From contig MU621200.1 in the NCBI GenBank assembly GCA_025399215.1, positions 1-53,072 of the forward strand: a DNA stretch of 53,072 bases. Direction: 5' to 3'. This document shows positions 1,659 through 49,979 of this stretch, one piece after another; positions within the stretch are counted from its first letter, which is position 1, and every line of letters begins with the position of its first letter. Below the pieces are notes generated by a model. It was not told where the DNA came from. It ran no database searches and saw only the letters and a list, made by a program, of their open reading frames with translations. This stretch comes from Globomyces pollinis-pini (taxonomy: Eukaryota; Chytridiomycota; Chytridiomycetes; Rhizophydiales; Globomycetaceae). The position numbers and the translations under genes are program-made.

Positions 1659-4600
1659 ATGGACTTTGAAATAATCAAGAAACGATTGTTCAGTGATCAT
1701 ATTTCAATTCAACAAGCTGCTTTGAATGAAGTATCAAAATCCATAAAGCAACTCAAAGATGGAAAGTTCATTGCACTATTGTATGAATCATTGGCAACGG
1801 AAAATGCGTTTCTAGCAGAGGAATCATTGAAGCTGCTTAGAAAAGGTATAGAATAGAATATCCATATTAAAAGTTAGGTACATATAATTTGATAAACGAG
1901 TTTAGGTGTTTTGGAGTTAGTCTTGAATCCAAAAACGATTGTATGTGAATTGATTTTACAATTAAGTAAATGCTTGGAAAAGTATCAATTGCTGATCATC
2001 AAAACCATTTACGACATCTTTTTGAACTTTCACAGTCAGCTAGATTTAGATCCACTAATATCGATACGAGAATCAAACAAGTCTCTTACTTATTTTCTTA
2101 TTCAAGAAATGAATACAATAATACGCTCATCAGATGAACGTGCAAAATTTAAAACACCCTTAGAGAGTCGAATTAAAATGATATTGCCATTTATCAATAG
2201 CATTCTATTCAAGGATCCCGATTCTAACGATACGGATAAATTAATGACAATTCATTTCTTAGCAAGTGTGTTAAACTATGTGTCTACTGAAAAATCTCAA
2301 GAGTCTATCAAAAGTATAACCAATGTCCTATTTTCAACCTTCGATCACTCTCAGCATGATTTAAATAACTTTATCCAGATCGAAGTATTAGAGATCCTAA
2401 CTAAACTTTTGCACTCTGATGTGATCACCAACGATGTTATCTTCCATCATCTTCTTTCTAGATTGATTGATATATGGTCGAGACAGTCAATTGTGGATCA
2501 ACGTACATTAACAGTTCTAACATCCATTATACAAACCTATGATGCAACCATAGATGTTTACAAGATTACAACTGTTGTCAGCTCAAGTATAATGTTAGAC
2601 CAACCTTTAAATAAGCAAATATTTCAATTGCTACAATGGAGCGTGAATGGTCTTATCAATTCCAGCTACTTGGATAGGATATATAAAGTAGCGTTTTTAC
2701 CAATCATTGCCTGTTTGATGTTACCAGTGGCTGTATTAACTGCGAAAGATAGTTATAGGCAGTCGGTGTATAATTTACTAAACGTTTTAGAAACTGCTAA
2801 AACAAATACCCCTGATGGCGACATAAGGGAAATGGATCCCGTCGATTTAAGAAATTCAGTTTATCAGCTTTACATAACATTTACCAGTTTTCTAAATGGA
2901 GACAAAATTTCCAAAAATTTTACAGCCATCGATTCATTGCATACTTTATTATTTTCAGCCAGGCTATTCAGTTCGAATAATCAAGTTGGATATAAAACTT
3001 TGCAATATTTTAATGAAAATATACTACTCTATCGAAAGACAGATATGTTAAAGGTGTTATCTCTTTATCTGTACCTCATCAAACGTCAACGCTTTCAGCA
3101 CTATATTTTAACAAAGTCCATCCCTTCTCTATGCTCATTTAAGGATCCATTTATTACCAACGCTTCGTTGAAAATCACTCTACAAATTATCAAGCCGCAA
3201 CAGTTTGTCACTGTATTAGAATTGATTGGTTTGGAATGCTTGATCGAAATATGGAAGATACAGCCCAGAATCTGGAATCATATTAAGATTTATATTTCAA
3301 ATTGGTCAAATCGATTTAAGAATAGTCAAGGTGGTGGTAAAATTAAACCACAAAGTGTTATTCAAAAGGAGAATGAATTGGAGATTGTTGTGACAAAATC
3401 GATTCTGTATTTTTGTGAAACTGATCCACTTAAATGTGGGGCAGATTTGATACCTGTTATTATAAGTCTTCTGAAACTTTCGTTGACACCTGATTTTGGA
3501 CACACGAGGAATGCATCATTTGAAGCAACAGGATATCTGCTATCTTCATTTAACGAGTGTATTATGGCTGATATTACTTCACCTAGATCAGGTATTCGTG
3601 TACGTCTAACCAGTAGCCTGGAATGTTGTTTATAAGTCCTACTTTGAGTCTCTTTCAACGGACTCGTATAGTATTGGTTATGTGAAAGTTTGCCAATTCT
3701 TTGGCTTAGTTGCTCAAAAGTGTGATGGTATGTGGTATACATTTAATTAAGCCATTAGATGCAAAAGAAAAGGATGTGCTATTTCGTACAGAAATTCTTC
3801 AACAATATCTCACACCATTACTTGATCATCCAAATGTAGAAATTCAGAATGAAGTGTACTCTGCTTTAAGATTTTTTCCCATGGATGAAATTTTAGAATT
3901 AATTCCATCTCCAGCTGAATTTCTTGAAATCTTCTACAAATCTAGTTTGCCAGATGCATACGCTTCTTTTCTAATTAAAAGAATTGAATTTGAATGTTTG
4001 AATATGTCTAGGCCTGTATTCAAAGGTCTCAGTTCGGAACCTGGAGCCAAAGTGACCAAGGCTAATTTGAACCCGTCGAGACAGCTAAAAGGAGTTGACA
4101 TGAAATCTTTGAAAAATATAGCGGATATATCTAAATCACTAACAAAATCATTCACTTCAGGAGCTCAGATTAATCGCTCTGCTTATGCCAGTACGTAATT
4201 ACATTTCTCACAATAGTGTCAATTCTCTATTACCCATATATTGAACAGATTAGTTATGACGATCAATCTTCTTTGAATCAATTACTTTCCCTGATACTGA
4301 AGGACATCTCCATTACTGACTCACCACTATTTTATCTAGATGCCATTGACGCTTGGCAATCTTTTTGGTGTCTTGTATTGACAAACTTATTTAAATCTCT
4401 ACCGACTACCACAGATGACTCACAAAAAGTTGAACTAATGTCAGATTTTTTCCAAAGAACTTATTCATATTTGTTTGACGATAGACTAGAAAAATCTGCC
4501 GTTCCCAGCACTTCATCAAACATTATACTTTCGATTTCTTCATTTTGCTTAGCTATTTTCCACCTACATTTTGTTCCTCCCACGAATTTTGTGCAAACCC

Positions 4601-6814
4601 TAATCAATCGATTATTATCAAAACTAAAAGAGCCGTTATTACCACTTGAGGTGGAATCTTCACTTTTGATATCTTTAACATATCTGGCAACTGGCTTACA
4701 GTTAAATGACAAGAAATTGATTGAAACTATTTGGTCTATATGTTTAAAGCCAGACCAATACAGTACCGATGGAGTATTTGCATATGGCATTTCTGTCGCT
4801 AAACTTTTATATCAATCATCGATATCGATGGAGGCTAATCAAACAAAGTTGCTGATGGATCAATTTTTGGACAGATTTTTTTCCACCGAATCAGGCTGGA
4901 ATAGTTTAGGTGCTGCTATTGGATTTTCAATGATGTTAAGCATACAAGATTTTCCTTTAAAAAGTCTTATTTCTGATGAAACACTACAATCAATCATGCA
5001 TTTGGCTATCAATTCTTTATCCAACGATGCTGAGTTAGACCATATGCAATTCAAGTCTGCATGTTGGATCATAAGTCATTCCTATCGCTCTTCTGATGAA
5101 TCAACTGATACTATCAATTTTGAAGATGTGTATGAAAGATGTAAGACGGAGGTACTTTACAAACTATTAATACAAATAGCAAAACCTTGATCTGTTACAT
5201 CATCTTTCCCTTGCTAAACTTCGGTACGAAATTTTACATTCTGTAGATATTGCCAAAATAATGGATAGAATTATTGAAAATTTGAACCAAAATCTAAATT
5301 TAAATTTGAAAGTGGCTACCATATATTCACTGCGTATTTTGTTTGGCTTAGATTATATGATAGAAGGCCAGCGAGGCTCTTATTTACCAGTCAGTCAAAT
5401 TCTTCAGCTCACAACAAACTGCTATAATATGTTGCTTCAGCCAAATGTGACACCAAAAGTCAGTCGCGCATTATCGCTTGCCATCGGAGCAGGTCTTTCG
5501 ACCGTCTATTCCACAGTACACGGAGTCAGTACAATTTCTGGTGCAATACAAAAATCAGGCGACCCAGAGGATTATCGAAGACTTAACCCAATGTCAAGCT
5601 ACTTGAAGGCAACTCACGACTCTTTGAAACATTATGTAAATAATGGAAGCCTGGATCTTGCCAGAAAAAGTTTGGATGTGTTGATCAATGTCAATACAAC
5701 TCTCCCTCCCGTTGATTGGACCGGTATATTCGAAAGTTTTAGTATTTCAGAAAAAAGCTATCTTAAATGTCTCATGTTTTCTTCCAAGCAAGTCTCTCCA
5801 AAATCTGCCAAATCATTGATTACGACCTTTATTCGAGCTTTTGAAGAAAATGCAACATTAGAAAAAGATGAACTGGCAGAACTGCTTTTATCAGATCTGG
5901 GAATTGGCAATCTGCTCAAGCTTGGTGGTAAGTTGATTTTCTTCTAATGTTCTACTAGATTCCTTGGTAATCAAGCAGGTCATCGCTGCATTAGGTCCGA
6001 TGCTAACTAATGCATCTCAAAATATTGGCAATCCTATCAATGTAAGAGATTTTGTTTAATGGAATAGTTGAAACTATTTCAAAAGATTAGTCACTTTATT
6101 AAAAAAGGTCATGTCAATGTGCAGTCCCTATTCTATAGAGATTTATCTGCAATATTAATGCAAATTTATCTAGATTTGGATATGGATAATTTTGATCTTG
6201 AATCGATGCACCTCTATATTTCAATAATAGAAAGTATATGCTCCGCTCTAGAGTTCCAAAATGTATTTTTAAAATCGATATCTGGACAAGAGCCGACAAG
6301 ACATGGATTATGGGCTCTGGCCATTGTGATGCCTAACCAATCAAACTTATCAAATGATTTTACACAACATTTGGGTAGCTTGCCAGATCGTTCTGAAATA
6401 GATCAAATGCATGTTGTCTATGCCTTAAATGCTTCTCTTAAACGTTGTACTCTTTCGGAAGAACAAAAATCAAAATGGTTGATTCGTCTATTAGATATTA
6501 CAATTCTTTCTGCGTCTAAAAATATTCCAAATATGGTCTCCTTCTATTGGCTTTTCACAGTATTGCCTTCAGTTCATTCTCTATGGGGTATGCAATTCAT
6601 TTTAGAACCAACCCCAAACTGGCCACAGATTCAATATGATGGGATATTATGGTTTCAGCGGGTAATTTCAAGTATCGAAGGAAATACTTTGCAGCAAGTA
6701 ATGTCCAGACTTAAAACATTACATACACGTGTAATCGATGAGGATTGTGTTAGTTTTAATGGTTCAGTTTTGTCTGATTTAGAAGAAATCTTGAATCATA
6801 ATAAATTTAGATGA
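1659..6814 (+). CDS. focadhesin/RST1-like HEAT-repeat protein, 8 exons
   Basis: Exons 1659-1845, 1906-3591, about 3617-3727, 3759-4190, 4217-5151, 5180-5927, 5959-6041 and 6068-6814 join into one frame of 1642 aa, close to human FOCAD (about 1800 aa). It is almost wholly helical repeats. A conserved-looking stretch (ALRFFPMDEI, then PSPAEF) lies mid-protein, and a TLPPVDW segment resembles the LPPVNW segment I recall from FOCAD. FOCAD in animals and RST1 in plants bridge the SKI complex to the cytoplasmic exosome in mRNA decay. Introns are 60, 25 (or 22), 31, 26, 28, 31 and 26 nt. A HEAT-repeat protein is certain from the sequence; the FOCAD assignment is by resemblance and could be tested by profile search. 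Confidence 0.6.
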
Positions 6815-6966
6815 TGATTGTCCAATGCAATAATAATTTTCATTCAATTTACTCTGCTTTTCTCAGCAGTGAAATGTTTTTTAATCAAATATATTACCTG
6901 AATTATGAATGACTTGTTTATTCCTCTAAAAAAGTCGCGTGTAATTATAACTAATTTCTTAAAAAC

Positions 6967-9187
6967 ATGGCCACTTTGACTGAAATTGGAGTGCGATTTA
7001 ATCCACCATACTTAGTTGCTTATTATGACTGTAAATTAGGAAGTAGACGTAGAAAAATTCCAGTTAGAGCAATAAAAGATGAGTTGGAAACAATTATGAA
7101 GAAAAAGTTGGATTCAACAAAACTTGCTGATGAAATTATTTCAAAGCATAAAACCTATCTAGGTGGATCAAGTAGACTTCAAGTAACTGGATTAATTATA
7201 ACCTTAGATTGTCAGACTCCTAGAAAAAATACTTGACCATCATCATTTGGATTTTGTACCATCAAATCAACAGAAAAGTCAGCCATCCAAATTACCAGAA
7301 CAGTCCAAGCCAAATGTGACGGAAAAGAATGATACACTAAAAAAATCATCGGATCCAGTAATGTCTGATATTGGTCATATCAGTACAAATTCAACTTTGA
7401 AGCAAGATTTAAAGGATATTAATTATGTGACAGAGAAAGCAAACTCATCGAAAGGAATTGATCCAAAAAATAAAGTGGACGCCATTGTACAAATTGACAC
7501 CAACAAAAATTTAAACAAATTGACGTAAGCTAACATATGACAAATCTAACACTTCAGTGACGAAGAACTGGCTAATGTAAAAAGCTTGATGCAGAAAGAC
7601 TTTGAAAAAAATCAAATAGCAAAAGGATCTAGTAATTTTACCTACGATTTAAAGGTAAATTGTTGGAGATTTATATATGATAGCGCGATTTTGGCCCTCA
7701 GACTGAAGGAAACGATTGGGACTCAGATGAAGAAGCTTCCCCTGTTCAAGCCAAATCTAAAATAGCTACTATTTCTGTCTCAAAATCAGATTCGGCCTCC
7801 ACTCAGCAAAAAGTGAATAACATCACTCCCTTAATCCCAGCAGCTTCAAATAATACCAGTGCATTATTGGCTGCACCTTTGCCGTTTTTAAAATCTGTGC
7901 CCAAAAAAAATGAAGCAAAAGACCTTGCAGATGATATGGATGCTTTGCTAAATGAGTTGGATTTTGATGATGAATCTTCTGTTAAAGAAAAACCAAATAC
8001 AGATGATTCTAAACAAGTGGTTATACAGGATAAGAAGGAACCTATCAAAGAGGAGAATGTTATTGATAAAACCGTTGATGTCAGTAAAGATGCCTCTAAA
8101 AGTGAAATCCAGCCCTTTAAGACGACAACAGCCGCACCTATAGATATCTCAAAATCGGAAGTAGACCAATCTCATATCAAAAGTGATTTGAAAAGTGGAA
8201 GTCTAAATTCTGGAATTCTTTCACTGCCAAAACCGTCACTATCAAGTTTACCAGCGCTTGGTGGCTCTCTATTAGGAACTCTTCCTCCATTAGGAGGTTT
8301 ACAAAAACCTTTAAACCCACTGAAAAGTATGATTCCTACTCCAATAGGCATAAGCGTTGAGAAAAAGATGGAACCAAAAGCAGACACTGAAAGAGTTGAT
8401 AACTCAAAATCTGAAAAGGAAATTTTTGACTCTATCATAAAACAAGAGCCACGTACAGCACCAACTCTAAACATTGGAGTATCGGATATAACCGGTTCTA
8501 TTGAAACGAAGGCATTAAAAGATAAAACACCCATTGTAAGTAAGTTGGAGGCGGACTATATATCCGATGATTTCGAGGAAGATTTCCACTTAGATGACGA
8601 CGATGAAGAAGATGAGGAATTCTCAAAACTTGGAAAGCAATCAATTGCCGAGAAAAACACAACAGCAAATGATTTAAAGGCGAAAGGAGTCGAAGCTTTA
8701 GCTATCACTAACAGTATTGCTACAAGGTTAGGAAACAGTGATACTAATGTAATAGAAATAAGCTGGTCGAACAGCCAAATAAAATTCCGTTAAAACCTAC
8801 AAATCAGTCGTCAATACCAATCAATAAGTAAATCAATTGTGTTTAACACCTAGAAATGATAACAACAAGGTTGATAAAGATACTTCAGAGAAAATAGTTG
8901 CCAGTGACAGTTTAAAAGCGAAAGACAATGAATTCAAGTCCTTGCAACCATTAACTCCCCAGGTTACATCTCTATCTAGTTTAGCCAACTTACCAAGTCT
9001 CAAGATGGGGAGTCTATTTAATGATAACGAGCTTAAGAGTTTAAAATCCGATCTTCAAGTTGAAAAGAAAGCTGCAGATTTTCAAGATGATTTTGGAATT
9101 GGTAATACCGATTCTGAAGGTGAAGAAATTGTATTTTCTGACGATGGACTATCTCTCGGATCTGGCAATGAAAATGATGCCTTTTGA
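6967..9187 (+). CDS. CEP19-like basal-body protein with long disordered tail, 6 exons
   Basis: Exons 6967-7182, 7208-7524, 7558-7654, 7684-8748, 8775-8827 and 8854-9187 give 693 aa; introns are 25, 33, 29, 26 and 26 nt. The N-terminus (GVRFNPPYLVAYYD, then KIPVR, then HKTYLGG) matches CEP19 (GIRFQPPAIILIYE, IMPVR, HKSYLEQ). After the second intron LNKLTDEELANVKSLM and DFEKNQ, NFTYDL and DWDSDEE match the second half of CEP19 in order. CEP19 sits at the mother centriole/basal body and recruits RABL2 for ciliary entry of IFT. Human CEP19 is 163 aa; here an acidic, Ser/Lys-rich tail of about 480 residues follows. The homology spans four exon junctions, which also validates the very short introns. 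Confidence 0.87.
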
Positions 9188-14278: not shown

Positions 14279-16519
14279 TTAAATTCTGAGATGTTGAATG
14301 AAAAACGATGCTCCTGCTTCAAAGCCATACCGTTCCGCTTCAAAAGTGTCCAGCGCATGTCCCACATTCGGAAACATTAAAGTTCTGTTCAAGTTAATTC
14401 GCAATCATTACTGAATATCATGACCAGCACCTTTAAGATATTCTGCCCAACGCAAACCCTGACTAGGAGGAACTCTTCGATCTCCCTTTCCAAGCATCAA
14501 CAGTGCTGGTGAAACTTTATCTTTGATTTGAGATGCTGGACTAGCCCCATACATCTTTACATAATCTATAGAATGAGAAGCACCATCTATAAAACCTTCA
14601 GGAGAAAGTAACTTTGGTACTCTGGAATCAAACTCAATTCCAGCTTCTCCAAACGTCCAATCAGGGATATCAGAATCGGATACCATTGCGCCGACATTAA
14701 TCACAGGGTTTCTTAGACACCCTGCTCTGTAAAAACCTGGATCCCTAGCCAATAAATGGGCAGTGATGAACCCTCCATGAGATCCGCCATGCAAGAATAC
14801 ATTCTGTGAATCAATGCCACTCTGCTTAGATGCCCACAATGCAGCTGAGTGAACATCATCAATGTCCAGAGTTCCAATTCTTCCAATCAATTTCCTGATT
14901 ATAAATACTCTTACTCAAATAATACTTGATCGAGTCATTTCCAAAGCCAGTCGAGCCTGTGTAGTTGACAACTAAACAAGAGAATCCTAAAGAACAGAAT
15001 GCCGCAATATTGAACGAAAATGAAGTTGAGGTACATCCATGCCTAGTGTTAATATTAGTTACTTACGGACCACCATGAGGCATTACTATCAAAGGTGTTG
15101 AACCTGTTTTTGCAAATGAATGAAGCTTGGAATTTGACTTGATCAATACCACTTCCAGGTTGGAGTCTCGGCCAGGAATACTATTAATACTATAACTTAT
15201 TTGCTGGAGAAGTGCCAATGTTTCTAAATTTAGCCAACTTAGCATTCTTACCTCGCTTTATTGGTGGTTTAGTGATAACATTCCAATCTATTGGCGATTC
15301 TGAGTCAAATTTTCCATAGACCAATACAGAGGGGTGATTTGGCGCAGACTTGGTTACTATAATCTGTCCGCATTCAGAGGTACCTAATAGACTCCAAGAC
15401 TCAGTTCCGGTGGGTGTCAAATTCACCACAGCCTTGGAATCGAGATGTACGGCCAATATAACCGTTCTACTTCTCCAATAGCTGTCTAATAGTATCACAT
15501 ATCCGTCCCCTACAGAAACCCATATCATTTCTTTCAAATTCGTTGTATATAATCCCGGAAATGTTTGATTAGAAGGAGCTACGTCAACAATTGGAACAAT
15601 GACTTCTTCAGCACCGGAAATGATATCATATTTGACTAACTCGGCGCAAGAATCGTGCGGTTTACCCACAGCACTGGATAAATAGACAAGTGCCATTTGG
15701 TGATAAACGTGGAAAACGAGCACTGTATCCTTCCCTAGAAAGTTTTCTGACATTTTTACCATCTAAATCACACTGATAAAGCGCAGCACGTCTATTGGTG
15801 CAAAATTTAATTCCAAGTTGGACAGCTTCTGTTGGAATACCAATAAAATACAGTGACGATGAATCAGATGTAAATAATGGCTGCGAGATTCCAAAGAACT
15901 CCAGATTACTTAATGCGGTAACGGAATCAACTTCAGAAAAAAGATCTATCAATACGATTGTTGAAGTACACCTTCCAGTATATCCTTCACCAGAATCAAG
16001 TATGTAATGATATCATCTTCTGGTGATAATGCCTGTGCAGTGTACATTATTTTACTTTCATCACTAGACCAAGTCATACTGCCATAATACCCTAATTCTT
16101 GTGAGTGAAATAACGCCACCCGTCAACATAAAAATCTCCATGGGCCTTTGTCACTTCAACGGTTCGAGATCCATTCAAACCCTTAACCTAATACTAAGCA
16201 AATTAGATTTACTTCAATAAATCGTTTTTCACCAACAGTTATTTGAGTTGCTTGAGATCGTTTGCTGGGAGAAGTAGCAACTAAAACCAATTGATTCATG
16301 TAAATGAACTGGATAGAATTCTAGAGCTTTTTTTCCATCTAAAGAATATTGAATATTCTGTAGAACTTTTCCTTTAGATGCCTGTGTAAAGTCTCTTGTG
16401 GACATTACAACAGTCAAGTTCAGATTGAGACCATCCACATCCAGATTGTTTAATCCAGAATATGATGGAATGACGGCCAATTGTTGGAATACTTTAGCTG
16501 CCACTGCGTCCTTGAACAT
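14279..16519 (-). CDS. acylaminoacyl-peptidase (S9C prolyl oligopeptidase), possibly frameshifted
   Basis: Human APEH-like features in order: WSSDESKIMYTA; LGIKFCTNRRAALY; PRLSPNGT; then the alpha/beta-hydrolase domain with PHGGPHG (oxyanion region), VNYTGSTGFG, the nucleophile GGSHGG, and the C-terminal NVGHAL histidine. APEH removes acylated N-terminal residues from peptides in the cytosol. Clear introns are 14385-14411, 14895-14925, 15043-15066 (24 nt), 15224-15251, 16092-16114 (23 nt) and 16188-16212. At three places (about 15688, 15995 and 16328) the conserved frame changes with no adequate intron; see findings. The catalytic half is intact. The ATG at 16519 is 41 bp from the divergent NEDP1 start. 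Confidence 0.75.
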
Positions 16520-16560: not shown

Positions 16561-17287
16561 ATGGCCAATAAATCCATTTTGATGTATGGGGATGTACAGA
16601 TATACGAAGAGGTACTTGAATTATGCTTATCCACAGGATTTAGCATCTGTTGGACCTGGAATGTGGTTAAATGATACAATCTTGGAATTTGAATACGAGT
16701 TTTTTGAAATTGATGCATTTTCAGATCAGTCCTCCATAGCATTTATCAGACCAGCAATCGTTTATTTAATGACTCAGTTCATTGATCCTGATAGCTTAGA
16801 GGGAGTTTGGCCTCCAGATTTAAAGTCTAAACAACTTATATTCTTACCAATTAACGATAATCAAGGCGATCAAGCTGGTGGATCCCATTGGTATGTGTGT
16901 CTTTAACTGACTTTTAGGTCTTTGTTAGTCTATTATCGACCCACCAACGCATTTTATTATTATGATAGTTTACACGATGCAAACAGGAAACTCACAGAAA
17001 CATATAAATCCAAATTAGCAAAACTAATTAATACATCGCCGCAATCATTTTTTGTTCCTATACCAACTCCTCAGCAAGAAAATGGATTTGATTGTGGAAT
17101 TTATGTATTGGCAATTACAGAGTTACTAGCCAAAAGATATCAGCAAATCGACAAAGATCTAACCATGAAGCCGGGTGATAATGCACTCTGGAGAATTTCA
17201 AATAGTAACTTGACTGCTGAACATATTCAAGAATTTAGAGAAGCATTGTTTGTGTTTATTTCGGAGTTAGCAACCAATTATCTATAA
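16561..17287 (+). CDS. NEDP1/SENP8-like deneddylase (C48 Ulp1 family), 3 exons
   Basis: Exons 16561-16611, 16637-16890 and 16918-17287 give 224 aa (human SENP8 is 212). Introns are 25 and 27 nt. Conserved blocks: WLNDTILEF; LPINDN followed by GGSHW with the catalytic His; YYYDS with the catalytic Asp; a Gln upstream of GFDCGIYV with the catalytic Cys. The domain set is that of SENP8/NEDP1, which matures and removes Nedd8 from cullins, rather than the larger SUMO proteases. The first short exon (ATG at 16561) is preferred over the in-frame ATG at 16586, because splicing yields a SENP8-like N-terminus. Confidence 0.88.
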
Positions 17288-25129: not shown

Positions 25130-27187
<2,058 letters not shown>

Positions 27188-35600: not shown

Positions 35601-36415
35601 TGTGCCGATTCAAAAGAATTACGATTTCCAACCATATCAATATACTCATGTACACTATTATAGCCATCGCTTTCGCTCGCCTCCCAAGTATTACGAACTT
35701 CCTTTTTTGGTGGAGGTTTAGAAGTACCCATTCCCATCTCACTGAGGAACCTTTCCACATCATCCATTAAATTGTTAATTGAATCAAGAGCTGTGGAGTC
35801 CTTGGCTTGAAGAGTTTCATTATAAAATCTTCCATGGCCATGGACTGTTTCTGCTTCCAAACCCGAGGAAAATATATCCATACTTTCACGAACTTCAAAA
35901 TCATCGTTCTCTGTGACACCAAGCAAATCTTTGATTTTATCTTGTAAAGCTTTTTGTGGAGAGTCCACATTTTGAACATCATTGAATTGAATCATGGCTA
36001 ATGAGGCTGCAACAGATTGAATCGATAATCGCCTGGTTAATGCACTGGGTAAGTTTGACAATTCTTGAAAGTCTATAGATTCTTTTTCAGCAGGATAGTC
36101 ATCTTCAGATTGATAAGGCATATCATCTTTTTCATAATCTGCATCATCATCATCATTTGATACATCTGGGGAATCTACATACTAAGGGTAAGGCAACTAA
36201 ACCAATACCTCAGCAACTGGGGTTCTATTTTTTTTAGATTTAATTCCCAGGAATCGTTTTAATCTCTTTGATAATTTCTTTGATTTCTTTTTGATTTCTT
36301 CAGCGTGTGCTTTATTTGAATGAACTGGTTGATTTGTTGTTAAGTGTTGACTATGAATACTATCATCATCCTGGTCAGTCGAGAAATGATGTTGAAAATC
36401 ATCAGATTCTTTCAT
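32633..36415 (-). CDS. large disordered protein with seven 'FSxKD...ELFG..SPISP' repeats, 4 exons
   Basis: Exons 36415-36209, 36181-35563, 35531-35496 and 35466-32633 join to 1231 aa; introns are 27, 31 and 29 nt. I recognise no known domain. The N-terminus is acidic, then strongly basic near residues 45-65 (KKKSKKLSKRLKRFLGIKSK). Seven copies of a motif of about 30 residues follow, in coding order near 34890, 34680, 34450, 34200, 33890, 33670 and 33380: FSAKD-x6-IPELFG-x2-SPISP-x-Y-x-G-x-Y. Several are followed by RKKS and RRLS phosphosite-like runs. A DPFP ... TTPTP block occurs twice, at the exon 2/3 region and at the C-terminus. The C-terminal 18 residues form a basic amphipathic segment. 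Looks like a phosphoregulated scaffold; function unknown. Confidence 0.75.
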
Positions 36416-36699: not shown

Positions 36700-38292
36700 A
36701 TGGAATCAGAAAATATCGCACTATTCGTTCAAATCACTGGATCAGATGTTAAAAATGCACAGGATTACCTTGATGTATAAAATTACTAAATATCATTGAT
36801 AATTAGTTTGCTGGTGGGGACTTGGATCAAGCAGTGACTTTGTTTATGGAGTCTGGATCACAGTCTTTAACTCATTTAAACAATGACAATCAAAACTTCT
36901 CAAATGATGATATGGATGATGATGTTCAGATTATCTCGGAAAATACACGAGCACCAATTCCTGTTGTACGTGAAGTTTTAAATCCATCATTCCAGGGAAT
37001 AACTGGTCAGAGGATACCTTTCACTTCACCACTTTCTGCCTTGAATGCTCAGGGAACAGAATCACAAACAGAAGATGCTGTTTGGAGTGAAAATAATCGA
37101 TTGGCTAACCTTTTCCAACCACCATTTGACATTATGTATACGGGCAGTTTTGATATGGTAAGAGTGCTTTTCAAAACAAGAATATTTGTGATTTCATTGT
37201 ATATCCCAAAAAAAGCATATATCTTTGTGAATATGCATTTCAATTTTTACAAAGCAATACTGAACTTTTTAGGCTCGAGATATGGCACAAAGGAAGAATA
37301 AATGGTTATTGGTGACTATTCATGATCCCAGTGAATTTGCATGTCAAGCTTTGAATCGCGATTTATGGAAAGACAGTTCCGTCAAAGAACTAATCAAAAA
37401 GCACTTCATATTCACACAAGTAAATTCAATCCATTTTTAACAAACTTAGTTCAATGTCAATAGTCCCGATGGTCTAGAACATCGCAATTACTATCCTTAT
37501 CATAATTATCCATATATTGCCATAATAGATCCTTTGACTGGTACTGACATAAATAATCTCATTAAATTTTCATAGGAGAAAGAATGAAGCAATGGAATCT
37601 TCCCATAGCACCTGATACATTTGTAATTGAAGGTAATTTCAGATTGTGTTTAATTTTAGTTGAGGTAAGTAACTGTCAATCTAATTCTCTTCAAGGTTTT
37701 TCTATTAGATCATCAACCTAAAGTATCAGAATCTAAACCAGAAAAGAAAAAAAAGGTATCGAAATATACTCTTAATGAAAGGATGTAACAATGCTTAGCG
37801 AAGAAGAACAGTTAGAATTGGCAATACAAGCGTCGATGGGTAACAATAGTGAGGCGGTTGACATGGATGAAGATGTTAAAGTCGTTGAAGAAGTATCACT
37901 TCCTCTTGACCCAGTGTCTAGTAAATCTTTAAAATATTCATTGATTTAGAATTTAAAAACATTAAAGCAGTTCAAAGTGTAGAAACTACTCTCCCTCCCG
38001 CACAATCCACAAGAATACAAATTCGATTTCCTGGTAATACTTTTAAAATTCATATCACAGACGGCAAAAGAGTTGTACGTAAATTTGAAAAGGTTGCAAA
38101 AGTTGTTCATATATTTGAATACATCAAATCAGCTTATCCAACAGAGTCTGAAAAACCATTTGATGTAAGATCCACTATGATTTTTAATCCACGTAGCTCT
38201 TTAATGTACGAGACTCTCTACTACAACATTTGGACTTGACTTTGGTAGAAGCCAAAGTGGAGGGTTGCTCATTGACCCTGGATTATATTTGA
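36700..38292 (+). CDS. UBXN7/Ubx5-like UBA-UAS-UIM-UBX protein, 10 exons
   Basis: Exons 36700-36774, 36807-37157, 37273-37419, 37450-37540, 37576-37632, 37660-37664, 37696-37755, 37782-37920, 37950-38164 and 38197-38292 give 411 aa. Order of parts: UBA-like helix bundle (FAGGDLDQAVTLFME); UAS thioredoxin-like region (KNKWLLVTIHDPSEFACQAL, NYPYIAIIDPLTG); a UIM (EEEQLELAIQASM); and a UBX domain (TRIQIRFPGN, then the second strand set ending VRDSLLQHLDLTL). UBXN7 recruits p97/Cdc48 to ubiquitylated and cullin-bound substrates. Most introns are 26-35 nt; one is 115 nt. The model needs a 5-nt microexon at 37660, the least certain point. Confidence 0.85.
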
Positions 38293-38398
38293 ATGATCTA
38301 TTCAATAATTGCGTGAATCAATATACACTATATTTGCTCTTGAACTTTTCCAATTTAAATAACTTTTTATTTGTAAGGCATTCAAAAGTATATCATAA

Positions 38399-39676
38399 TT
38401 ACTTTGGTAAAGTCTTCACCTTTTCATTATATAATTTTTCAGCATCAGACCAAACCGAACTTGCATGTCGATCCTTCAAAGCAAGTAAAGATGGTAATAA
38501 ATCTGCCGAGAACATATCGCTGGCTTCTCTAGGCAAAAGAGTTGGTAAATGATCAATGGCGATGACATCTACAGGGCTATAAAAAAAAATTAGCAATATG
38601 TCAATGATTACTTTGTTTTGGATTGAACATTGATTAAAGGTTTGTCAAAGGTGGTTGCACCAAAATATACAGGAATAGGATTGTGTGGATTGGTAGCATC
38701 ACAACTGACATCAGACACTACAGACAATTTTTTAGGTCCATCCAACATTTCCTTGGTCAAGAAAGGAGGAATTGGCTTAGATAAGTAGATACAATTAACA
38801 AAAATATCTTGCTCCAAGATTTCACTAAAAGGACCTCCTTTAGCTGTCTCTGCCATATCCCATTCAACAATTTTGGAACTACCAATTAGTACAAATATGA
38901 CAATCTACCTATCGATTCCGGCTTTCTTTGCGAAATCTGTTGCACCAGTACCACATCTTCCTTTTGCACCCATGACCATCACAGATGGTGACTTTCCACT
39001 CTTTTCCAACGCTTCAGCTAACCTTTTCTTGGTATGAGAAATCAGCAATGCTTCATTCGGATAAGGATTAATCTTTGGATAAACTCTAATTAAGATAAAT
39101 GTTATTCAAGTATTACTGATTTGGGGTTAAAATTTGGTGTGCCCAAACATCCAGACCAACAGCACAACCAGCAAATCCAGCATAATAACCATAAGCAGCA
39201 ACTCGTCGATTATTCAACATCAAAAATTCAATATCTAATAAAAGTCCATTTCCACGAACAAACTATCGATATAAGTAATACAATGATCATACTCTTGATA
39301 AAACATCTGCCCAACCATCCTGTTCTTTGTAACAATGAGCAAACATAATATGAGTATGATGAAGTGGAGAATCATCATTTTCAGGCAATTCTTTTAAACC
39401 AATGATGTAAGCATCTTTAGGAGCACTTCTCCAAGTACCTTTTTCCACCAGCGTACAACCAACACTATAAAAGAGTAAGAAATGACCATCAAAATAGATA
39501 CGAAGTAAATTCATCATCTTTAAAGATACGTTGATTACACTTTTCCACGGTGATAGTGAAATCTTTCATTAAGAATGAATGTTACCATTAGCAAGTAGAG
39601 TTTTTGCGATTGAAGGAGTTAAAGCAGATCTTGCTTCATTGAGTTTAGTTTCAGCACGTAACCAAAGATGAACCAT
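38399..39676 (-). CDS. LYS1: saccharopine dehydrogenase (NAD+, L-lysine-forming), 7 exons
   Basis: Exons 39676-39586, 39562-39502, 39464-39293, 39262-39117, 39085-38909, 38878-38612 and 38576-38399 give 363 aa; introns are 23, 37, 30, 31, 30 and 35 nt. Landmarks of fungal Lys1: [63 protein letters not shown] (dinucleotide site); [34 protein letters not shown]. It catalyses the last step of the alpha-aminoadipate lysine pathway, a strong marker for a fungus. The gene converges on the UBX gene with about 100 bp between stops. Confidence 0.95.
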
Positions 39677-39998
39677 TTTGAATGAAATCACGAGAGAATT
39701 TGGTTTAATTTATACCATTGAATGAAAGCCACATCAGAGATTCAAGACACCGATATCACCAGAAGTAACCATTAACATCACCATATAAATTACTATGGAT
39801 AGTTGTTGATATCATCAAAGAGTTACTTTTGACATCTACTTTAACTTAAGAATACTTGGGTTTTTTAATTGTCACTAGATTGAAATGTAATTCATAATTG
39901 TACTTTGAAGGTTGTTTATATTTTCATGCTTGTCATTATCATTTACAGTATGTTATGAGCAGCAATCATAAAAGTTTTTATTTTCTTGATCAATTTCA
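39677..39998. other. divergent promoter region between LYS1 and LSM6
   Basis: About 320 bp separates the two divergent starts. No strong element stands out; AT-rich. Confidence 0.5.
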
Positions 39999-40316
39999 AT
40001 GGATGTACAAAAACCTGCAGAGTTTTTACAACAAGTGATTGGAAAAACTGTCTTAGTAAAACTAAATTCTGGAATCGAGTATAGAGGTATAAATCTACCT
40101 TTAATTCTTATTGTAGGAACTATGTCTTGTCTAGATGGATACATGAAGTATGTTATCTTGATCATTCACTCTTTAGTATCGCATTAGAAAACACTCAAGA
40201 ATATGTTGATGGTGATATAACAAATGAATACGGGGATTGTTTTATTCGTGGAAATAATGGTACTTGAATTCAATGGATTGACAATAGTATTATTCATTAG
40301 TGCACTACCAGAGTAA
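39999..40316 (+). CDS. LSM6: U6 snRNA-associated Sm-like protein LSm6, 4 exons
   Basis: Exons 39999-40086, 40117-40147, 40177-40259 and 40288-40316 give 76 aa, typical for LSm6. Introns are 30, 29 and 28 nt. Sm1 is FLQQVIGKTVLVKLNSGIEYRG ... CLDGYMNIAL, and Sm2 is FIRGNNVLFIS. LSm6 is in the LSm2-8 ring on U6 snRNA and the LSm1-7 decay ring. Two of three junctions fall inside near-invariant sequence (YRG|T and YMN|IAL), making this gene a firm control for the short-intron calls. It ends 47 bp from the convergent DUF3128 gene. Confidence 0.96.
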
Positions 40317-40363
40317 GAGTATATTAATAAATGTTTTGATTCCCAATTCCAACAGCCGGGTTT

Positions 40364-40768
40364 TTAAATTGGAGGAGGAAAGTTCTCCAATGGTTTCTCT
40401 CTTAGCTAAGGATAAGAAAATATCAACCATTACATCCCAAACATCCAATGAAGGCCTTTGTGTAGTTTTGGCTAAATCATTCTCCAATTCTCTTTTCACT
40501 ATCGCATCCTAACATCAGTTTACTACCACTTTAAATACATGGGCATCTTTTCTAGACATGGCTTTGGTAGAAACACAGAATGTTAGTTCAGACTGCAGTC
40601 TACTACAATCCTTTATTTTCCCATAACGATAATAATAAGTCATTTGAGGTGAAATCGCTAAAGAAATGAATTGAACGATAGGATACTATAGCAAAGTTGA
40701 AGCTTATCGAATGCTGTCATTACACTGCAACTTCGTAATTCCTCTTTATCTTCTACTGTCTCTGGCAT
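40364..40768 (-). CDS. DUF3128/Emi1-like small protein, 4 exons
   Basis: Exons 40768-40687, 40657-40539, 40508-40434 and 40405-40364 give 105 aa; introns are 29, 30 and 28 nt. The pattern matches DUF3128 (yeast Emi1/Emi2 family): SCSVMTAFDKLQLCY with two Cys, YYYRYGKIKDCSRLQSELTFC with two Cys, then a helical tail ending VWDLREKP. The paired Cys spacing resembles twin CX9C-type small mitochondrial proteins. Biochemical role is not established. Convergent with LSm6. Confidence 0.8.
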
Positions 40769-42768: not shown

Positions 42769-43693
42769 TCATATAACAGCATGAACAGTCGCCTTTTTAT
42801 CAAATTTGATTTCGCGTATTGTTTGAAAGATTCTGGTATATAGATAAACCATAAATGGGTAATATGATAATGCAATTGCATATCCTAATTTACAAATTTG
42901 ACTTTGATACCCTGTCAAATCTGATTCCCTATAAGATGTTTCTACCATCACATAAAAGCTAGAATCTAATTGTTAATCTACCATTTTTTACCCAACATGG
43001 TTAAACTCCAAAATAAGATAATATATCGAATGGTTTTTTGATACTGTGATTTAATTTCTGTACTGCTACTCTTTTTTTTGGAAAATATATACATTTTGTA
43101 TGAAATAAATGAACATTGAATGGTAATTACAAAAAATCCTATCAGATAGTATAATGGTGTTCCATATGAATACCACTACTATTAAACTATAATTAAAAAC
43201 CTTTGCCAATAATTCTGTCCATGGTATTAAACCAATCAATAACTTTACTAGATATCAATGAAATTATTGATTTCTTACCACCACCAGTACTGAACGCGAC
43301 TATAATCTCGACTATTTGCACCAGGGTAATTACCTTATCCGTGAATTGTGGTGCTATTGATTGGAGCAATCGCAGCATTTCCATATCAGCTAACATCATG
43401 CATAATACATAGAAAAAGTCGGGCCAATTGGTCAAGACTAGATAAATCTGATGAACTCCAATGGTGGTTCTTCCAGGTAAATTGAATTGTATCAATTGAT
43501 TTGCTACTATCAGTAGAGACAAGCAAATCAATATGAGCAGTATCTTCTGATAGGCACGAACAGCCGGTTGTCTGTAAAACTTGACAAACTTTGATACAGT
43601 ATGCCAAAGTCCAAATGATAAAGATATTGAGCAGATAATATTAGCAACTATATATGCTTTGTTGTAGTTGCTTTCATTGAATTCCAATAACAT
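42769..43693 (-). CDS. seven-transmembrane (GPCR-like) protein, about 3 exons
   Basis: First exon from ATG 43693 encodes four hydrophobic segments (IVANIICSISLSFGLW; ILLILICLSLLIVANQLI; IYLVLTNWPDFFYVLCMML; VITLVQIVEIIVAF). The next carries two more (LYYLIGFFVITIQCSFI; YIILFWSLTML), and the last (after a 26-nt intron near 42965-42990) one (YAIALSYYPFMVYLY). A charged loop with KKK lies between segments 5 and 6. Seven spans fit a GPCR-like receptor of unknown family. The first junction, near 43170-43250, is uncertain: the frame needs an intron ending at a TAG near 43178, and the donor is ambiguous. There is no ATG upstream of 43693 before an in-frame stop. Confidence 0.55.
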
Positions 43694-43831
43694 TGCCAAC
43701 AAAATGATGTCATTTCCTTCAATAAAATCACCTACCCAATGAGATATTTAATTGAATGATACACGACAAAAAATACTACAACAGAATCTATGCTATGCTT
43801 TAATCTGCATGGATTGTTTATTACAAGAAAA

Positions 43832-44717
43832 TTAAAACTTCATGGCATGTGGGAATTGACCTTTGGAAAGAGCAAAGGAAGCATTCAAGTAAGCCTTAAG
43901 AGCTGGGGTTTTCTTGACGATAGCTAAAAGTTGAGTGTCAACTGCTTTTTGGTCAGCAACACGAGTTGGTTCAACAGTCTTCTTCTACAAATATTAGCAA
44001 TTGAAAGATTTTAGATAATTAAATGTAATAAAGTTCAATCAGAGTATAAGTTACGTGCATGTACAGCAGTGTGAGGTGCTGTATTAAACAAGAGGTGTCA
44101 GAATAAAACGAATTTTCATCAAGTTGAACATTGATAGATTTTAAACTTACATCTTTTCCTTCACCGAAAAGAGCTTCAGCAGTTGGTTTAACTTTAGCGT
44201 CTTTAGCAATCTTGAAGTAATCGTCGTTTAATTTAGCATCAACTTTAACTTTAGAGATATCGAGTTTGGTGGAGGTGGCAATGACGTAAGCTTGGTTAAC
44301 ACGACGAAGTGGGACACCGTTGATTTTGTGTGGTCCAGATACCAATAACAAACCGGATTCGAGTTGCTTTAAGAAAACAACACGTTTTCCCTTGAAACGT
44401 CCAGAGAGGAGGATAAGGACAGTTCCTGGGGTGATGGTAGCACGAAGGGTGGTTGGACGTTGAGTCTTTCTGGTCTTCTTTGGGACTGGAACATCATCAG
44501 CTTCGTAGAAACGTGGAGCCTTCTTGGTAGGGATGACTCGGGTTTTACCGTTCTTGGCACCACCAACCTTGACAGTTTTGGTGGTTGGAGCAGCCTTTGC
44601 TGGAGCAGCAGCAGCCTTTTTAGCTTTCTTGAACAAAGCTTTTTTGGCGTATGCTTGGGAACGAGACAAACGACTGATACCTGGGACGAGTGAAGGGTTG
44701 ACAGGAGCGTAAGCCAT
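43832..44717 (-). CDS. RPL6: 60S ribosomal protein eL6 (RPL6), 2 coding exons
   Basis: Exons 44717-44151 and 43984-43832 give 239 aa. Conserved: [76 protein letters not shown], and the C-terminal helix [15 protein letters not shown]. eL6 is a large-subunit ribosomal protein. The coding intron (43985-44150, 166 nt) is far longer than the genome norm and contains a C/D snoRNA candidate. Just before the ATG an acceptor-like TTAG (44720), with a GTAGGTC donor near 44886 on the same strand, suggests a 5'-UTR intron, as is common for ribosomal protein genes. Codon use is more GC-rich than in neighbours, as expected for high expression. Confidence 0.95.
44033..44129 (-). ncRNA. C/D-box snoRNA candidate inside RPL6 intron
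   Basis: On the minus strand a GTTCAAC / TTGAAC terminal stem (44123-44129 and 44033-44038) flanks a C box TGATGA (44116-44121) and a D box CTGA (44039-44042). An internal D'-like CTGA sits at 44098-44101. Size is about 97 nt. It lies in an unusually long intron of a ribosomal protein gene, the classic location for C/D snoRNAs. The guide stretch next to the D box contains GTAACTTATACT, complementary to AGTATAAGTTAC, which I recall as similar to a segment near the 18S rRNA 5' end; the target is unproven. A near-identical copy exists at 45656-45752. Confidence 0.7.
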
Positions 44718-45033
44718 TTCTAAAATAATTAGTGAACTGAATAATTGAGAAAAAATGTTGTATAATCCAAGAATCACATCCAAATTAAATTCAATCAAGA
44801 GTACTGCTATTAAAGTATAATATCAAAGCAGTGTATGCCAATGATGGATGGATGGATGAATCTCGATGGTTGTGATTGAGACCTACCTTCAAAATAATGT
44901 AAAATTCTAGTTGAAATTTTTTGCCAAAGTCTCCCCCAAGCGCCACACCAAAACTGGATTCAACTTTTCATGGAATCAAAAACATTGAACTTTAAGGGAG
45001 GAATCAGAGCAAAGATTCAGTTGAAAGCGACAG

Positions 45034-45215
45034 ATGAGAGACAATCGGATACGAATATTAACAGTTGTTTGTTATTAGACTATTGGTAGAATGAGAGACA
45101 ATCGGATACGAATATTAACAGTTGTTTGTTATTAGACTATTGGTAGAATGAGAGACAATCGGATTCAAATGTTTCTTATTAACAGCAGTTGCTTGTTGTT
45201 TGACTATTGGTATAG
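45034..45215. repeat. 57-bp tandem repeat, about three units
   Basis: Units beginning ATGAGAGACAATCGGAT start at 45034, 45091 and 45148, exactly 57 bp apart. The first two are essentially identical (each contains AACAGTTGTTTGTTATTAGAC). The third is diverged and slightly longer. It lies upstream of RPL6, outside any gene. Confidence 0.85.
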
Positions 45216-45600
45216 ACTTTTTATAACAGAAGTGTCTGCATTGCAAAATGGATTGTAATTCACACTAGCAAATTTACTGACTAGCACATTGAGTATAAGT
45301 GTGTATGTACATAAGCGAATTTAAATGGGTGCTTATCTCTATTATATGTGTTTCCATCACAAAGGTAATTAACTGCTTACTGTGGTTTGCAAGAACAAAA
45401 TACTTCATTACAATACTGAGTAAACAACATTTTATTGGAACGAGTATTTATTGAAATGAATAATAGACCACTTCATTTACCAATTACGCATGCGATACTG
45501 AGCAATATAGCCTCACCCCACGTTCCAAACAAGATTTCAATCATATCAATGGCCTGATTGAAGTTCATAGCAGTGCAACATACACATGCTTTGGCATTCC

Positions 45601-45960
45601 AACTATCTACAAACATTAGCAAAAGAACAACATTGAATTGTTAAATGAAGACATGGTTCAATCAGAGTATAAGTTACGTGCATTTACAGCAGTGTGAGGT
45701 GCTGTATTAAACAAGAGGTGTCAGAATAAAACGAATTTTCATCAAGTTGAACATTGAAAGGTAGTTGACTGAACTTACATCTTGTGGATCCAATTCAAAA
45801 GGAGAGTATTTATAGATCAACGATTAGAATATCATTTGGCCATGGCAGATGGATGGATAGATGGATGAAATTTTTGATCGTGTTGGTCACGTCAGAAATT
45901 TTGGTCTTTGAATTGTTTTATATGTCTATAAGGAGCGCCACACGTATATTTGAGATGGAC
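45601..45960 (-). pseudogene. RPL6-derived relic keeping intron and snoRNA copy
   Basis: The region repeats the RPL6 intron from acceptor-like CTACAAACATTAGCAA (plus strand, 45607) through the snoRNA to the donor-like AACTTACATCTT (45773). On its far side (45840-45960) it has short resemblances to the RPL6 5' flank (GATGGATGGAT-type run, AGCGCCACAC). The coding exon between is missing. It is either a decayed duplicate of RPL6 or a noncoding snoRNA host gene derived from it. No protein frame is conserved. Confidence 0.6.
45656..45752 (-). ncRNA. second copy of the C/D-box snoRNA candidate
   Basis: Almost identical to the RPL6-intron copy over 97 nt, with one clear difference (TTTACAGC against TGTACAGC on the plus strand). 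The terminal stem, C box (45739-45744) and D box (45662-45665) are all kept, while sequence just outside is diverged. Conservation restricted to the snoRNA body suggests it is still a functional RNA. Confidence 0.65.
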
Positions 45961-47420
45961 TTCATTTTATTAAAAGAAATCAATATCAAGAAGAATAAAG
46001 CAAAGTGATAATAAATAAATATTGAAGCATTGGTCGAATACTATTTTTAATCTGTTTCCAATTTTAGCAAGAGATGGGCTTCCTTCCATCTGAAATTTTT
46101 ACCATTTAAAGAAGTATTGGACATCTTAATTTGGGATGAAATTTAGCAGATTACTGATCGGTTAAATTGGCAAGATGTCTAATTACGATACTAGTTGGCA
46201 ATCAAGAGCCATTAACAAACAAAAACTAAATCATCCTGTTATGGTGTACACGGGTGTATGGAAATAGATTCCACTTCATCGTTACAAACGGGTCTTTGCA
46301 TTTAAAGCTCATGACCTAAAATCGGATACTTGACCTAAATCACCAAATGCGATATAAGTAGCAGCAATTTGTAAAAAGCGTTCTTAGTAAATCCTAATCG
46401 AGAGCGGGACATTTTAAGCGTAGTTGAATGGTGTATTGTTGGTTTAATATTGTTTGGAGTCCCTTGAGGTAGTGAATTGTTTTTTTTGGAGGATTGGAAA
46501 GAGGGCAGTGGCTGCACATTCCAAATCCAGTTTCATGAACCAACTGAGTATTAAAATTTTGTTTCAAAGGAATTAAAAAAAGTACAATCAGAACAACATT
46601 AAAAAAAGGATAAGTGAAAGTAAGAAATCAATGTAGTGTGGGTTTGAAGCACAAATGAGAACGGTCAGCACAAGCTTTGGCCGATACAACAGACCCAACT
46701 GAAAGACCCCACTGACAAAATACAAGCGGACTGGTAACTTTTCATTTCTGTGTTTCATTTCATTTATGGCAGACGCCTCTCAAACTTCCAAAAAAACGAT
46801 ATTGACGAAATTAAAAACCATGATGGAAATCCTCTATTATTCGTATGTACTTATGGGGCTGTTGTGCTGGCGAGGTAATGAATTGAAAAGTGTCTGGCTC
46901 ATAAACTCAAAAAAAAAGGATCCTTCATTCTATATCCGACGTCAATTCTTTCCTTTGGCGGTTGATCGTGAGCCCAACCTAATGCCAAAACCACTCATTG
47001 ATTCTTCAATTGGATCAGATAGATGTTCTGGTAGTATACAACTGAATCCAACTTTTGATAAGAGACCCATAATAGGTCTTGCCATTGCGAAATGAGGGAA
47101 TTTGTAACTGTTTGTGCTTCTGTGAAACAACTCTTTGAACACTGAAAAAAAAATCCAAGTGAGTTTTTGCAGCGCCTAAAAGCGAATTAAACCAATCGAT
47201 GAAATTCTTAATAAGTGGGAAAACTGTTTGAACATACAATCGAATTCTAGAAAGATTTTGAGCGAGCATTGTCCTCAAGGTGAGTCTTTGAGGTGAGTCT
47301 CTGGCTTTTTCGTTTCATAATTTTCATCCGATGGGTCAAAACCCCAAGTTTAGAAAGAGATCGCAATGTGTGTTACACCAAAATTGATGGTTATAGCAGG
47401 TTTCACAAAAGTTTGCATCT
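45961..47420. other. intergenic, no supported gene
   Basis: About 1.45 kb. ORFs of 60-110 codons occur on both strands (for example 46766-47095 on plus and 47015-47278 on minus) and overlap one another, with no recognisable family or convincing splice structure. I do not annotate them as genes. Confidence 0.45.
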
Positions 47421-48523: not shown

Positions 48524-49979
48524 ATGACAGATTTAACAACAAAAATATCAGCATTTTTAGAACCTCAAATGCTTCTTTCGATATTAGATTTCCAAGCAAA
48601 CAATTCCGTATAGATATATATGTAAATTGACCTTCAGGATTTCCAAAAGAATGATGTATTGAAACAAAAATTGGAAGTGTTGAAAACAACTCATTTATTG
48701 GAATTGAGAAATCAAGTACATAAGCAATTAAACTCCAAAGGTGTGTCTTTATCTATTAACATGTGGTTTTCTAGATTTACCTAATCTTAAAGAATTACAA
48801 AAGGAATTATCAAGTCAAAAGAAAGATTGGGATATCAAATTCGAAAAGATTTCCAAATTCATTCAAAATCCAAATACATTACAACAGATTAAACAAAATC
48901 CAATTGCCTTCAAACAATCTATTGATGTAAACTTAAATTACTAACCATAGCCATCTATTCTCACTGATTTGTATGATTATGCGTTGTTCCAGTATAGTGT
49001 AGGAGAGTATAAAGTGACTTCAGAAGCCTTGTATCATTACAGGATTTTATCTAATGATACTAAGCAAATCTTTAGCTCATTATGGGGAAAAATTGCATCA
49101 GAGATCTTGTTAAAGAATTGGGATGTCGCATTTGAAGATTTATATATTTTAAAGGATTTACTAGACTCATCTAGTGAAGATCAAAAGGTGCTTGTGCATA
49201 ATCGTAGTTGGTTATTACATTGGAGCTTGGTTATCTTTTTCAACCACCCTAAAGGAAAAGATGCATTCTTGGATTTATGTTTGCTTCCAAACTATTTGAA
49301 TGCTATCCAAACTGTTTGTCCTTGGATCTTGAGATATGTTACTGCAGCAATGATCATGTCCTCAAAGAAATATCGATATCAATTGAAAGACTTGATTGTT
49401 ATTCTTTCTCAAGAAATTCATCAGGTGAGTTAGACCATCTTCATTTATTGAACCCATTTACATTAAATGTTTTTTCAATTTCTCTAATATTGTAGTACTG
49501 CGACCCGTTAATTAATTTGATTCAATCGTTGGCCATTAACTTTGACTTCAATGAAGCAATCAAGAACTTGAAAGATTGTGTTGAGTTTGTCAAGAAAGAT
49601 TACTATCTTGTGAAGGATAGTGAGCCTTTATTGGAATCTTGTAGAGTATACTTTTTTGGTAACCATATATATCATTAATGTTCAGAACATTATTGTCGAA
49701 TTCATCAAACCGTAACTTTGGATAATCTCGCAAAATTGCTTATATTACCATCCAAGAACATGGAAAGTTGGGTGAACAAAGCTGTTCAAGAAACTCGATT
49801 AGAAGTTCGAATTTCCAAGGTATTGTTATCCTAATTTTAATTATTAGGGATCTGTTGAACGAGTATTTACTTCTCACACTGTGTTCCGACAAATTCAAGA
49901 TAAAACTAAACCATTAAATCAAAAATCCCAACAAATCATTAATGCGATTGAGAAGAAAAGTGGAGTTGAATGTGCTTAA
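48524..49979 (+). CDS. eukaryotic translation initiation factor 3 subunit e (eIF3e/INT6), 7 exons
   Basis: Exons 48524-48607, 48638-48740, 48775-48926, 48951-49424, 49496-49658, 49686-49819 and 49848-49979 give 413 aa; introns are 30, 34, 24, 71, 27 and 28 nt. The PCI protein matches eIF3e throughout: LTTKISAFLE; DLYDYALFQYSVGEY; SLWGKIASEILLKNWDVAFEDL; LLHWSLVIFFNHPKGKD; PNYLNAIQTVCPWILRY; the PCI winged helix ICRIHQTVTLDNLAKLL-like region; and a conserved C-terminal NAIEKK. It is a subunit of the eIF3 complex that recruits mRNA and the 40S subunit. It is slightly shorter than human eIF3e (445 aa), lacking the acidic end. Confidence 0.94.

Follow-up and report, generated by a model that had tools for sequence, protein, structure and literature searches.

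Contig MU621200.1 of the chytrid fungus Globomyces pollinis-pini (assembly GCA_025399215.1) raises the question of whether the many small segments that interrupt its conserved genes are genuine introns, and whether such short introns are a property of the genome as a whole. The window, by which we mean the whole stretch of 53,072 nucleotides (nt) analysed here, is contig 111 of a draft assembly of 18,547,825 bases in 459 contigs. The observation that this genome carries ultra-short introns, mostly of 24-35 nt, is confirmed as far as sequence comparison reaches, while the interpretation first placed upon it in an initial annotation of the window is, overall, partly supported.

Intron lengths in the genome sample and in the window

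Introns were called with a purpose-written gene finder that scored codons and GT and AG sites and weighted intron lengths by a prior, initially flat over the range 12-300 nt. It retrained itself on the window together with 20 stretches of 10 kilobases (kb) from other contigs, 253 kb in all. Gene models with a score of 8 or less, as well as those sharing at least 100 bases with a better-scoring model, were excluded before counting, both in the training set and in the hold-out samples. The first training pass gave 468 introns, 242 of them of 40 nt or less. The converged run gave 652 introns in 120 gene models, a density of about 3.8 per kb (56,973 codons), with a median length of 29 nt: 584 of these introns did not exceed 40 nt, 571 fell between 22 and 37 nt and 395 were shorter than 30 nt.

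As a control, the same training was carried out with five other dinucleotide pairs in place of GT-AG. With GT-AG, 568 of the 652 introns were 23-37 nt long, compared with 162 of 799, 105 of 528, 203 of 803, 98 of 540 and 156 of 634 for the control pairs, and the total score reached 9582 as against 6614-7467. Moreover, six hold-out stretches (60 kb) read with the flat prior yielded 132 introns, 88 of them at 23-37 nt, versus 2 introns in the reversed copy of the same sequence. In a separate 93.9 kb kept out of training, the trained length prior placed 227 of 254 introns at 22-37 nt. The hold-out results, including those of the flat prior on this last sample (see below), indicate that the short class is real and genome-wide in the samples, and that the proportion of longer introns depends on the prior.

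In the window 125 introns were called, 111 at 22-37 nt and 114 at 40 nt or less; the total is approximate, some window models being partly wrong (those at 36700-39037 and 42769-44717 include doubtful introns, among them ones of 13-19 nt). The initial annotation had counted about 110 introns, all but about seven of them at 22-37 nt. The dominance of the short class is borne out by these figures, whereas the near absence of longer introns is not: introns above 40 nt do occur and are not particularly rare, as illustrated by those of 98 and 67 nt in the phosphoglucomutase gene and of 71 nt in that of eIF3e. Seven genes could be anchored on homologues or solved structures, and of the 57 introns tallied in them 54 were of 22-37 nt; the 41-nt third intron of LSm6 and the 105-nt last intron of LYS1 are not included in this tally.

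Junctions in conserved genes

Three genes, all on the minus strand, were used for testing the junctions by homology:

17786-20982, minus strand: PIG-N model of 953 codons with 12 introns, all between 24 and 34 nt; ab initio calls, deposited protein and homology
20879-20902, minus strand: first intron of PIG-N, 24 nt; ab initio, homology rank 30 of 209, outside the deposited protein
25130-27187, minus strand: phosphoglucomutase gene of 546 codons; of its 11 introns nine measure 25-32 nt and two are longer (67 and 98 nt)
27024-27121, minus strand: 98-nt phosphoglucomutase intron, beginning GTT and ending AAG; homology and deposited protein
26524-26590, minus strand: 67-nt phosphoglucomutase intron; ab initio, homology and deposited protein
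28167-31240, minus strand: NAA25 model of 852 codons with 18 introns, each 23-34 nt long; its C-terminal end is uncertain
30784-30806, minus strand: NAA25 intron, 23 nt; ab initio, homology rank 3 of 208, 0.1 bit under the best
29267-29298, minus strand: NAA25 intron 13, 32 nt favoured by homology; 26 nt (29267-29292) in the final model

For each intron, 208 or 209 frame-keeping removals, with no requirement for GT or AG, were scored against profiles of homologues from which the Globomyces protein and any homologue of at least 1100 amino acids had been dropped. In phosphoglucomutase the called junction ranked first or tied first in 11 of 11 cases, including the 98- and 67-nt introns. In PIG-N it ranked first in 8 of 12 and second, by no more than 0.4 bit, in two others; introns 1 and 11 ranked 30 and 29, the former lying in a weakly conserved N-terminus. 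Over the short introns of the three genes, the called junction was first or tied in 20 of 39, ties being mostly joint shifts of both ends which leave the protein unaltered. For NAA25 intron 13, the 32-nt form scored 173.1 bits and the 26-nt form 163.0, the donor favoured by homology lying 6 nt from that of the model. With the intron retained, the homology score fell in 40 of the 41 cases; only for the last intron of NAA25 did it not.

The deposited proteins of the same species provide a further comparison. A search with the PIG-N model returned a deposited G. pollinis-pini protein identical over 95% of the query, followed by those of Boothiomyces and Terramyces at 63%; for phosphoglucomutase and NAA25, too, the top match came from G. 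pollinis-pini. The deposited phosphoglucomutase equals the model over 546 of 546 residues, PIG-N over residues 51-953, and the deposited NAA25 (817 residues) agrees with 817 model residues with one gap. Since identity extends across the junctions, the deposit should contain the same introns, although the comparison was one of proteins and not of exon coordinates; this implies that nearly all the introns tested are already contained in the deposited annotation. The expectation that standard gene finders would fail on such a genome is contradicted by these matches. The worry is not empty, for the deposited PIG-N lacks the first exon and its 24-nt intron. Leaving aside its own protein, four of the five top chytrid homologues cover 98% (P0002, P0004, P0005) or 95% (P0003) of the longer model, an argument for this form rather than the deposited start.

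Other genes of the window with short introns are the following:

38201-39676, minus strand: LYS1 model (saccharopine dehydrogenase, lysine-forming), six introns of 23-37 nt in the structure-aligned part and one of 105 nt beyond it
39563-39585, minus strand: LYS1 intron, 23 nt; junction at residue 30, in a gapless alignment to 2q99
48524-49979, plus strand: eIF3e gene of 413 codons, its introns measuring 30, 34, 24, 71, 27 and 28 nt
48927-48950, plus strand: eIF3e intron, 24 nt; ab initio
16561-17287, plus strand: NEDP1/SENP8 gene, introns of 25 and 27 nt
39999-40512, plus strand: LSm6 gene, introns of 30, 29 and 41 nt, end of model doubtful
14279-16519, minus strand: ab initio model with nine introns of 23-31 nt, whose product we take to be acylaminoacyl-peptidase-like
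15043-15066, minus strand: 24-nt intron of the preceding model; ab initio only
1659-6814, plus strand: long gene model of 1606 codons; among its 11 introns ten measure 25-31 nt and one, at 1846-1905, 60 nt; ab initio only

Once spliced, LYS1 aligns to solved structures over residues 2-358 of 394, eIF3e to its counterparts in solved structures over residues 3-408 of 413, NEDP1 to SENP8 over residues 6-177 of 224 and LSm6 to LSm6 over residues 4-72 of the 83 submitted. Five introns had been put forward initially as examples, and four of them (15043-15066, 20879-20902, 48927-48950 and 30784-30806) were called ab initio and unaided. The fifth, 39563-39585, was hidden in the joint run by an overlong plus-strand model (36700-39037) lying over LYS1; running only the minus strand of 38000-40000 brought it out. 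The claim that the ultra-short introns are genuine and genome-wide is supported by homology, by splice signals and by their presence in every part of the genome sampled.

Anatomy of the introns and splicing machinery

The introns look U2-type in their layout: a G/GTA donor, a yTnAy branch site about 17-21 nt further on, and then mostly 6-10 nt to a YAG acceptor. The branch motif, which was not built into the gene finder, emerged from a random-start motif search of the 571 short-intron interiors (log-likelihood 200.4, versus 19.1 for shuffled interiors). It exceeded a threshold of 2.5 in 361 of the 571, and in 250 of these 361 the branch A lies 6-10 nt ahead of the terminal G. The median distance from donor to branch A is 17-21 nt, depending on the length class, and intron length correlates with both of these distances (0.43 and 0.31). 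A motif near the AG, whose search had been proposed as a check, is thus present, and so is the compressed donor-branch-acceptor arrangement that had been predicted.

At the donor, information is concentrated at position -1 (0.62 bit), the GT itself and position +3 (0.90 bit), with only 0.19, 0.04 and 0.05 bit at +4, +5 and +6. Base shares at the hold-out donors are similar to those of the training set, and a G at +5 is also uncommon in introns above 40 nt (18 of 68). The same splice signals flank the 67- and 98-nt phosphoglucomutase introns. Intron interiors contain 42% T and 11% G; at positions -4 to -6 of the acceptor T amounts to 44-45%, in a profile taken from an earlier version of the gene finder that allowed empty exons, and since this barely exceeds the background no distinct pyrimidine tract precedes the acceptor. 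Donor, acceptor, branch and composition together separated called introns from length-matched open-frame GT..AG pairs with an area under the curve of 0.976, an upper bound given that the scored introns had been picked with the same matrices. To judge from their GT-AG ends and U2-type motif, the introns seem unlikely to belong to the minor spliceosome, though no search aimed at U12 RNA was made.

As regards the machinery, one U2 RNA gene was found (135.4 bits), with its canonical branch-recognition stretch intact. SF1 is encoded, with helix-hairpin, KH and zinc-knuckle domains, and its own gene contains six introns of 25-31 nt; single-exon models adjoin this gene (L036, 2825-3136 and 64-987). 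Residues 54-248 of U2AF2 match the paired RNA-binding domains, and residues 281-381 the C-terminal domain, of solved U2AF65; of the six introns in its model, five measure 25-30 nt and the remaining one 126. Prp18 is also encoded (193.2 bits). The inspection of U2/U6, SF1 and U2AF genes that had been suggested was successful for U2 RNA, SF1 and U2AF2, and not for U6, at least in this draft assembly. A U1-like pattern match at C9 and a U6-like one at C70 were discarded, for they gave no Rfam match even at an E value of 1 or less and both read like coding sequence; a second U6 pattern produced four matches with one mismatch each, versus three for a control pattern. U6, usually the most conserved spliceosomal RNA, may be absent from the draft, split by an intron or divergent. 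Scans of the window for tRNA and Rfam families gave nothing useful for the intron question.

Some other features of the window may be mentioned. A CEP19-like gene at 6967-9187 on the plus strand (Pfam PF14933, 80.9 bits) fits a flagellated fungus. The 1231-codon model at 32633-36415 on the minus strand repeats, several times and imperfectly, a motif resembling FSAKD..IPELFG..SPISP, and no Pfam family matched its first 673 residues. At 21937-22359, on the plus strand, a small protein shows a weak cerato-platanin match (23.3 bits, under the cut-off of 24.4). The largest stretch devoid of gene models is 44718-47365 (2648 bases), 20 of the 24 gaps being shorter than 600 bases, and GC skew peaks at 44001-46000.

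Known parallels and possible explanations

Published sources are cited here by PMC number, each for the individual passages concerned. Intron medians of 22-26 nt have been given for Paramecium (PMC5485702) and of 24 nt for P. bursaria (PMC12862383), while heterotrich ciliates have introns of 15-16 nt, mikrocytids of 16-17 and nucleomorphs of 18-21 (PMC10245619). The description of the present introns as close to the lower limits known is not supported, their median being 29 nt as against 15-17.

The closest likeness is with Paramecium (P. tetraurelia, P. caudatum and P. bursaria), which is also intron-rich, lacks a donor consensus around +5 and has U-rich interiors, the majority of its introns being below 40 nt. 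Globomyces differs in its median of 29 nt, its tail above 40 nt, the retention of A at +3 and the lack of a clear deficit of introns whose length is a multiple of three (175 of the 571 short introns). The Paramecium-type shortage of stop-free introns within this class was in the right direction and too weak (44 seen, 51.0 expected from shuffles), those with a stop numbering 131 for 124.0 expected. In P. bursaria, exon-side weight at the donor and the disuse of +5 have been linked to the loss of LUC7L and the retention of LUC7L3 (PMC12862383); the Globomyces donor, with exon-side weight and none at +5, resembles it in this respect.

Stentor and other heterotrichs share very short introns with Globomyces, and Slu7 was found in neither, although the miss is a weak one in the fungus; the Globomyces introns are, however, twice as long, and Prp18 is present, whereas it is marked as not found in the Stentor table of PMC9505925. 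Mikrocytid and chlorarachniophyte nucleomorph introns are likewise confined to a narrow range of lengths, but these are parasites, with a highly reduced spliceosome in mikrocytids (PMC10245619), or remnant nuclei; the Globomyces range is wider and its sequence conservation weaker. Among fungi, Cryptococcus neoformans has many short introns, its mean of 63 base pairs (bp) being the short example in a study of 644 genomes (PMC8476143), compared with the median of 29 in Globomyces. Globomyces is thus a fungal addition to the known ultra-short-intron genomes, its introns being already implicit in the deposited proteins. Dicyemid mesozoans, which are animals, presumably have introns of similar size.

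These are very probably ordinary U2-type spliceosomal introns, mostly of 24-35 nt throughout the genome, which would descend from old chytrid introns shrunk to a working minimum. Introns would be defined by an ordinary U2-type spliceosome able to tolerate about 17-21 nt between donor and branch site, a distance for which some 50 nt has been reported necessary in human splicing (PMC6692369). U1 would lean on the exon side and on the GTA of the donor, SF1 and U2 would read the branch site, and the second step would use the nearby YAG. Rather than being recent gains, the introns would have lost sequence through deletions, in a gene-dense genome, until they were about as small as this spliceosome tolerates: their density is near the 3.93 introns per kb of two chytrids (PMC8476143), a likeness that speaks for the shrinking of old introns more than for gain.

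Several results weigh against this account. The flat prior placed only 139 of the 214 introns called in the 93.9 kb hold-out at 22-37 nt, and 50 at 101-300 nt. In NAA25, which is poorly conserved, the called junction ranked first in only 3 of 18 cases. The branch threshold was also passed by 185 of the 571 shuffled introns, so that many individual branch points are uncertain. At spacings of 22-37 nt, GTA..TAG pairs are not depleted in exons (193 against an expected 188.7), and a simple length-based intron definition might have predicted their avoidance. Finally, neither U1 nor U6 RNA was found by Rfam or pattern searches of the draft assembly.

A quite possible extension, towards which we nevertheless lean slightly less than away from it, is that the trait is old in the Rhizophydiales, or wider in chytrids, and has passed unremarked because surveys filter or skip very short introns. 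A pan-eukaryotic survey did leave out introns under 30 bp (PMC10639083), an exclusion that would lose 395 of the 652 introns counted here and that stands as a warning for surveys of this kind. The literature search turned up no intron lengths for relatives: among the matches listed in the open-licence literature, with the genome paper (Amses et al. 2022, cited in PMC13391722) not among the papers covered, there was no description of intron length in Globomyces or its order.

Less likely, and to be entertained only tentatively, is a splicing machinery reduced or rewired in the direction of ciliates, with Slu7 and RED lost, U1 recognition moved to the exon side in a LUC7L3-like manner and short introns preferred. 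The fungus might then have reached independently a ciliate-like way of splicing, in which Slu7 becomes unnecessary because branch site and acceptor are 6-10 nt apart, the donor relies on the exon side and GTA with +5 unused, introns stay at about 29 nt, and Slu7 (perhaps RED as well) has been lost while Prp18, SF1 and U2AF2 are kept; we consider this improbable. Even at first look Slu7 and RED_N had no candidate, and the low information at donor positions +4 to +6 recalls P. bursaria, described as lacking both a consensus at +3 to +6 and LUC7L (PMC12862383). Slu7, like Prp18, is listed as not found in the Stentor table (PMC9505925), and in yeast the two can be dispensed with when the branch site is close to the acceptor (PMC10711555). 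Nevertheless, the absence of Slu7 and RED_N candidates comes from an exon-by-exon search of a draft assembly, and the same searches were silent in every control genome; for these reasons the misses, like those of U1 and U6, are weak, and those of Slu7 and RED are a lead only. Moreover, Prp18, SF1 and U2AF2 are all present, A is retained at +3, unlike in the description of P. bursaria, and the loss of RED would be odd when human cells need it for short introns (PMC6692369). The scarcity of G at +5 in the longer introns also suggests that the donor may not be tied to length.

That the segments are artefacts, arising from frame errors in sequencing or from small introns created by the gene finder to avoid stop codons, is highly improbable: the gene finder does err, as the doubtful introns of the two partly wrong window models attest, but the explanation is largely refuted by the lack of a peak with the control pairs, the two introns of the reversed hold-out, the recovery of all 11 phosphoglucomutase introns by homology with GT and AG left free, and the unprompted emergence of the branch motif. 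Removal by non-spliceosomal means, or skipping by the ribosome, is rejected as next to impossible, for although the size is far under what human splicing tolerates (PMC6692369), the GT-AG ends, the branch motif at a preferred distance, the presence of U2, SF1, U2AF2 and Prp18, and the identical signals around the 67- and 98-nt introns all speak for the spliceosome.

With shortened U2-type introns as the preferred reading, the significance of Globomyces lies in its position. Ultra-short introns have been described in ciliates, nucleomorphs and mikrocytids, which are far from the yeast and human spliceosomes of known structure. A fungus with a median of 29 nt, and with about 17-21 nt between donor and branch site where human splicing reportedly needs about 50, brings the question of the minimal intron nearer to these models and provides a fungal case for asking what is the smallest intron a spliceosome can handle. 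Should the system prove to be ciliate-like, it would serve as a natural experiment, not far from the yeast models, on which parts of the spliceosome short introns need or make redundant.

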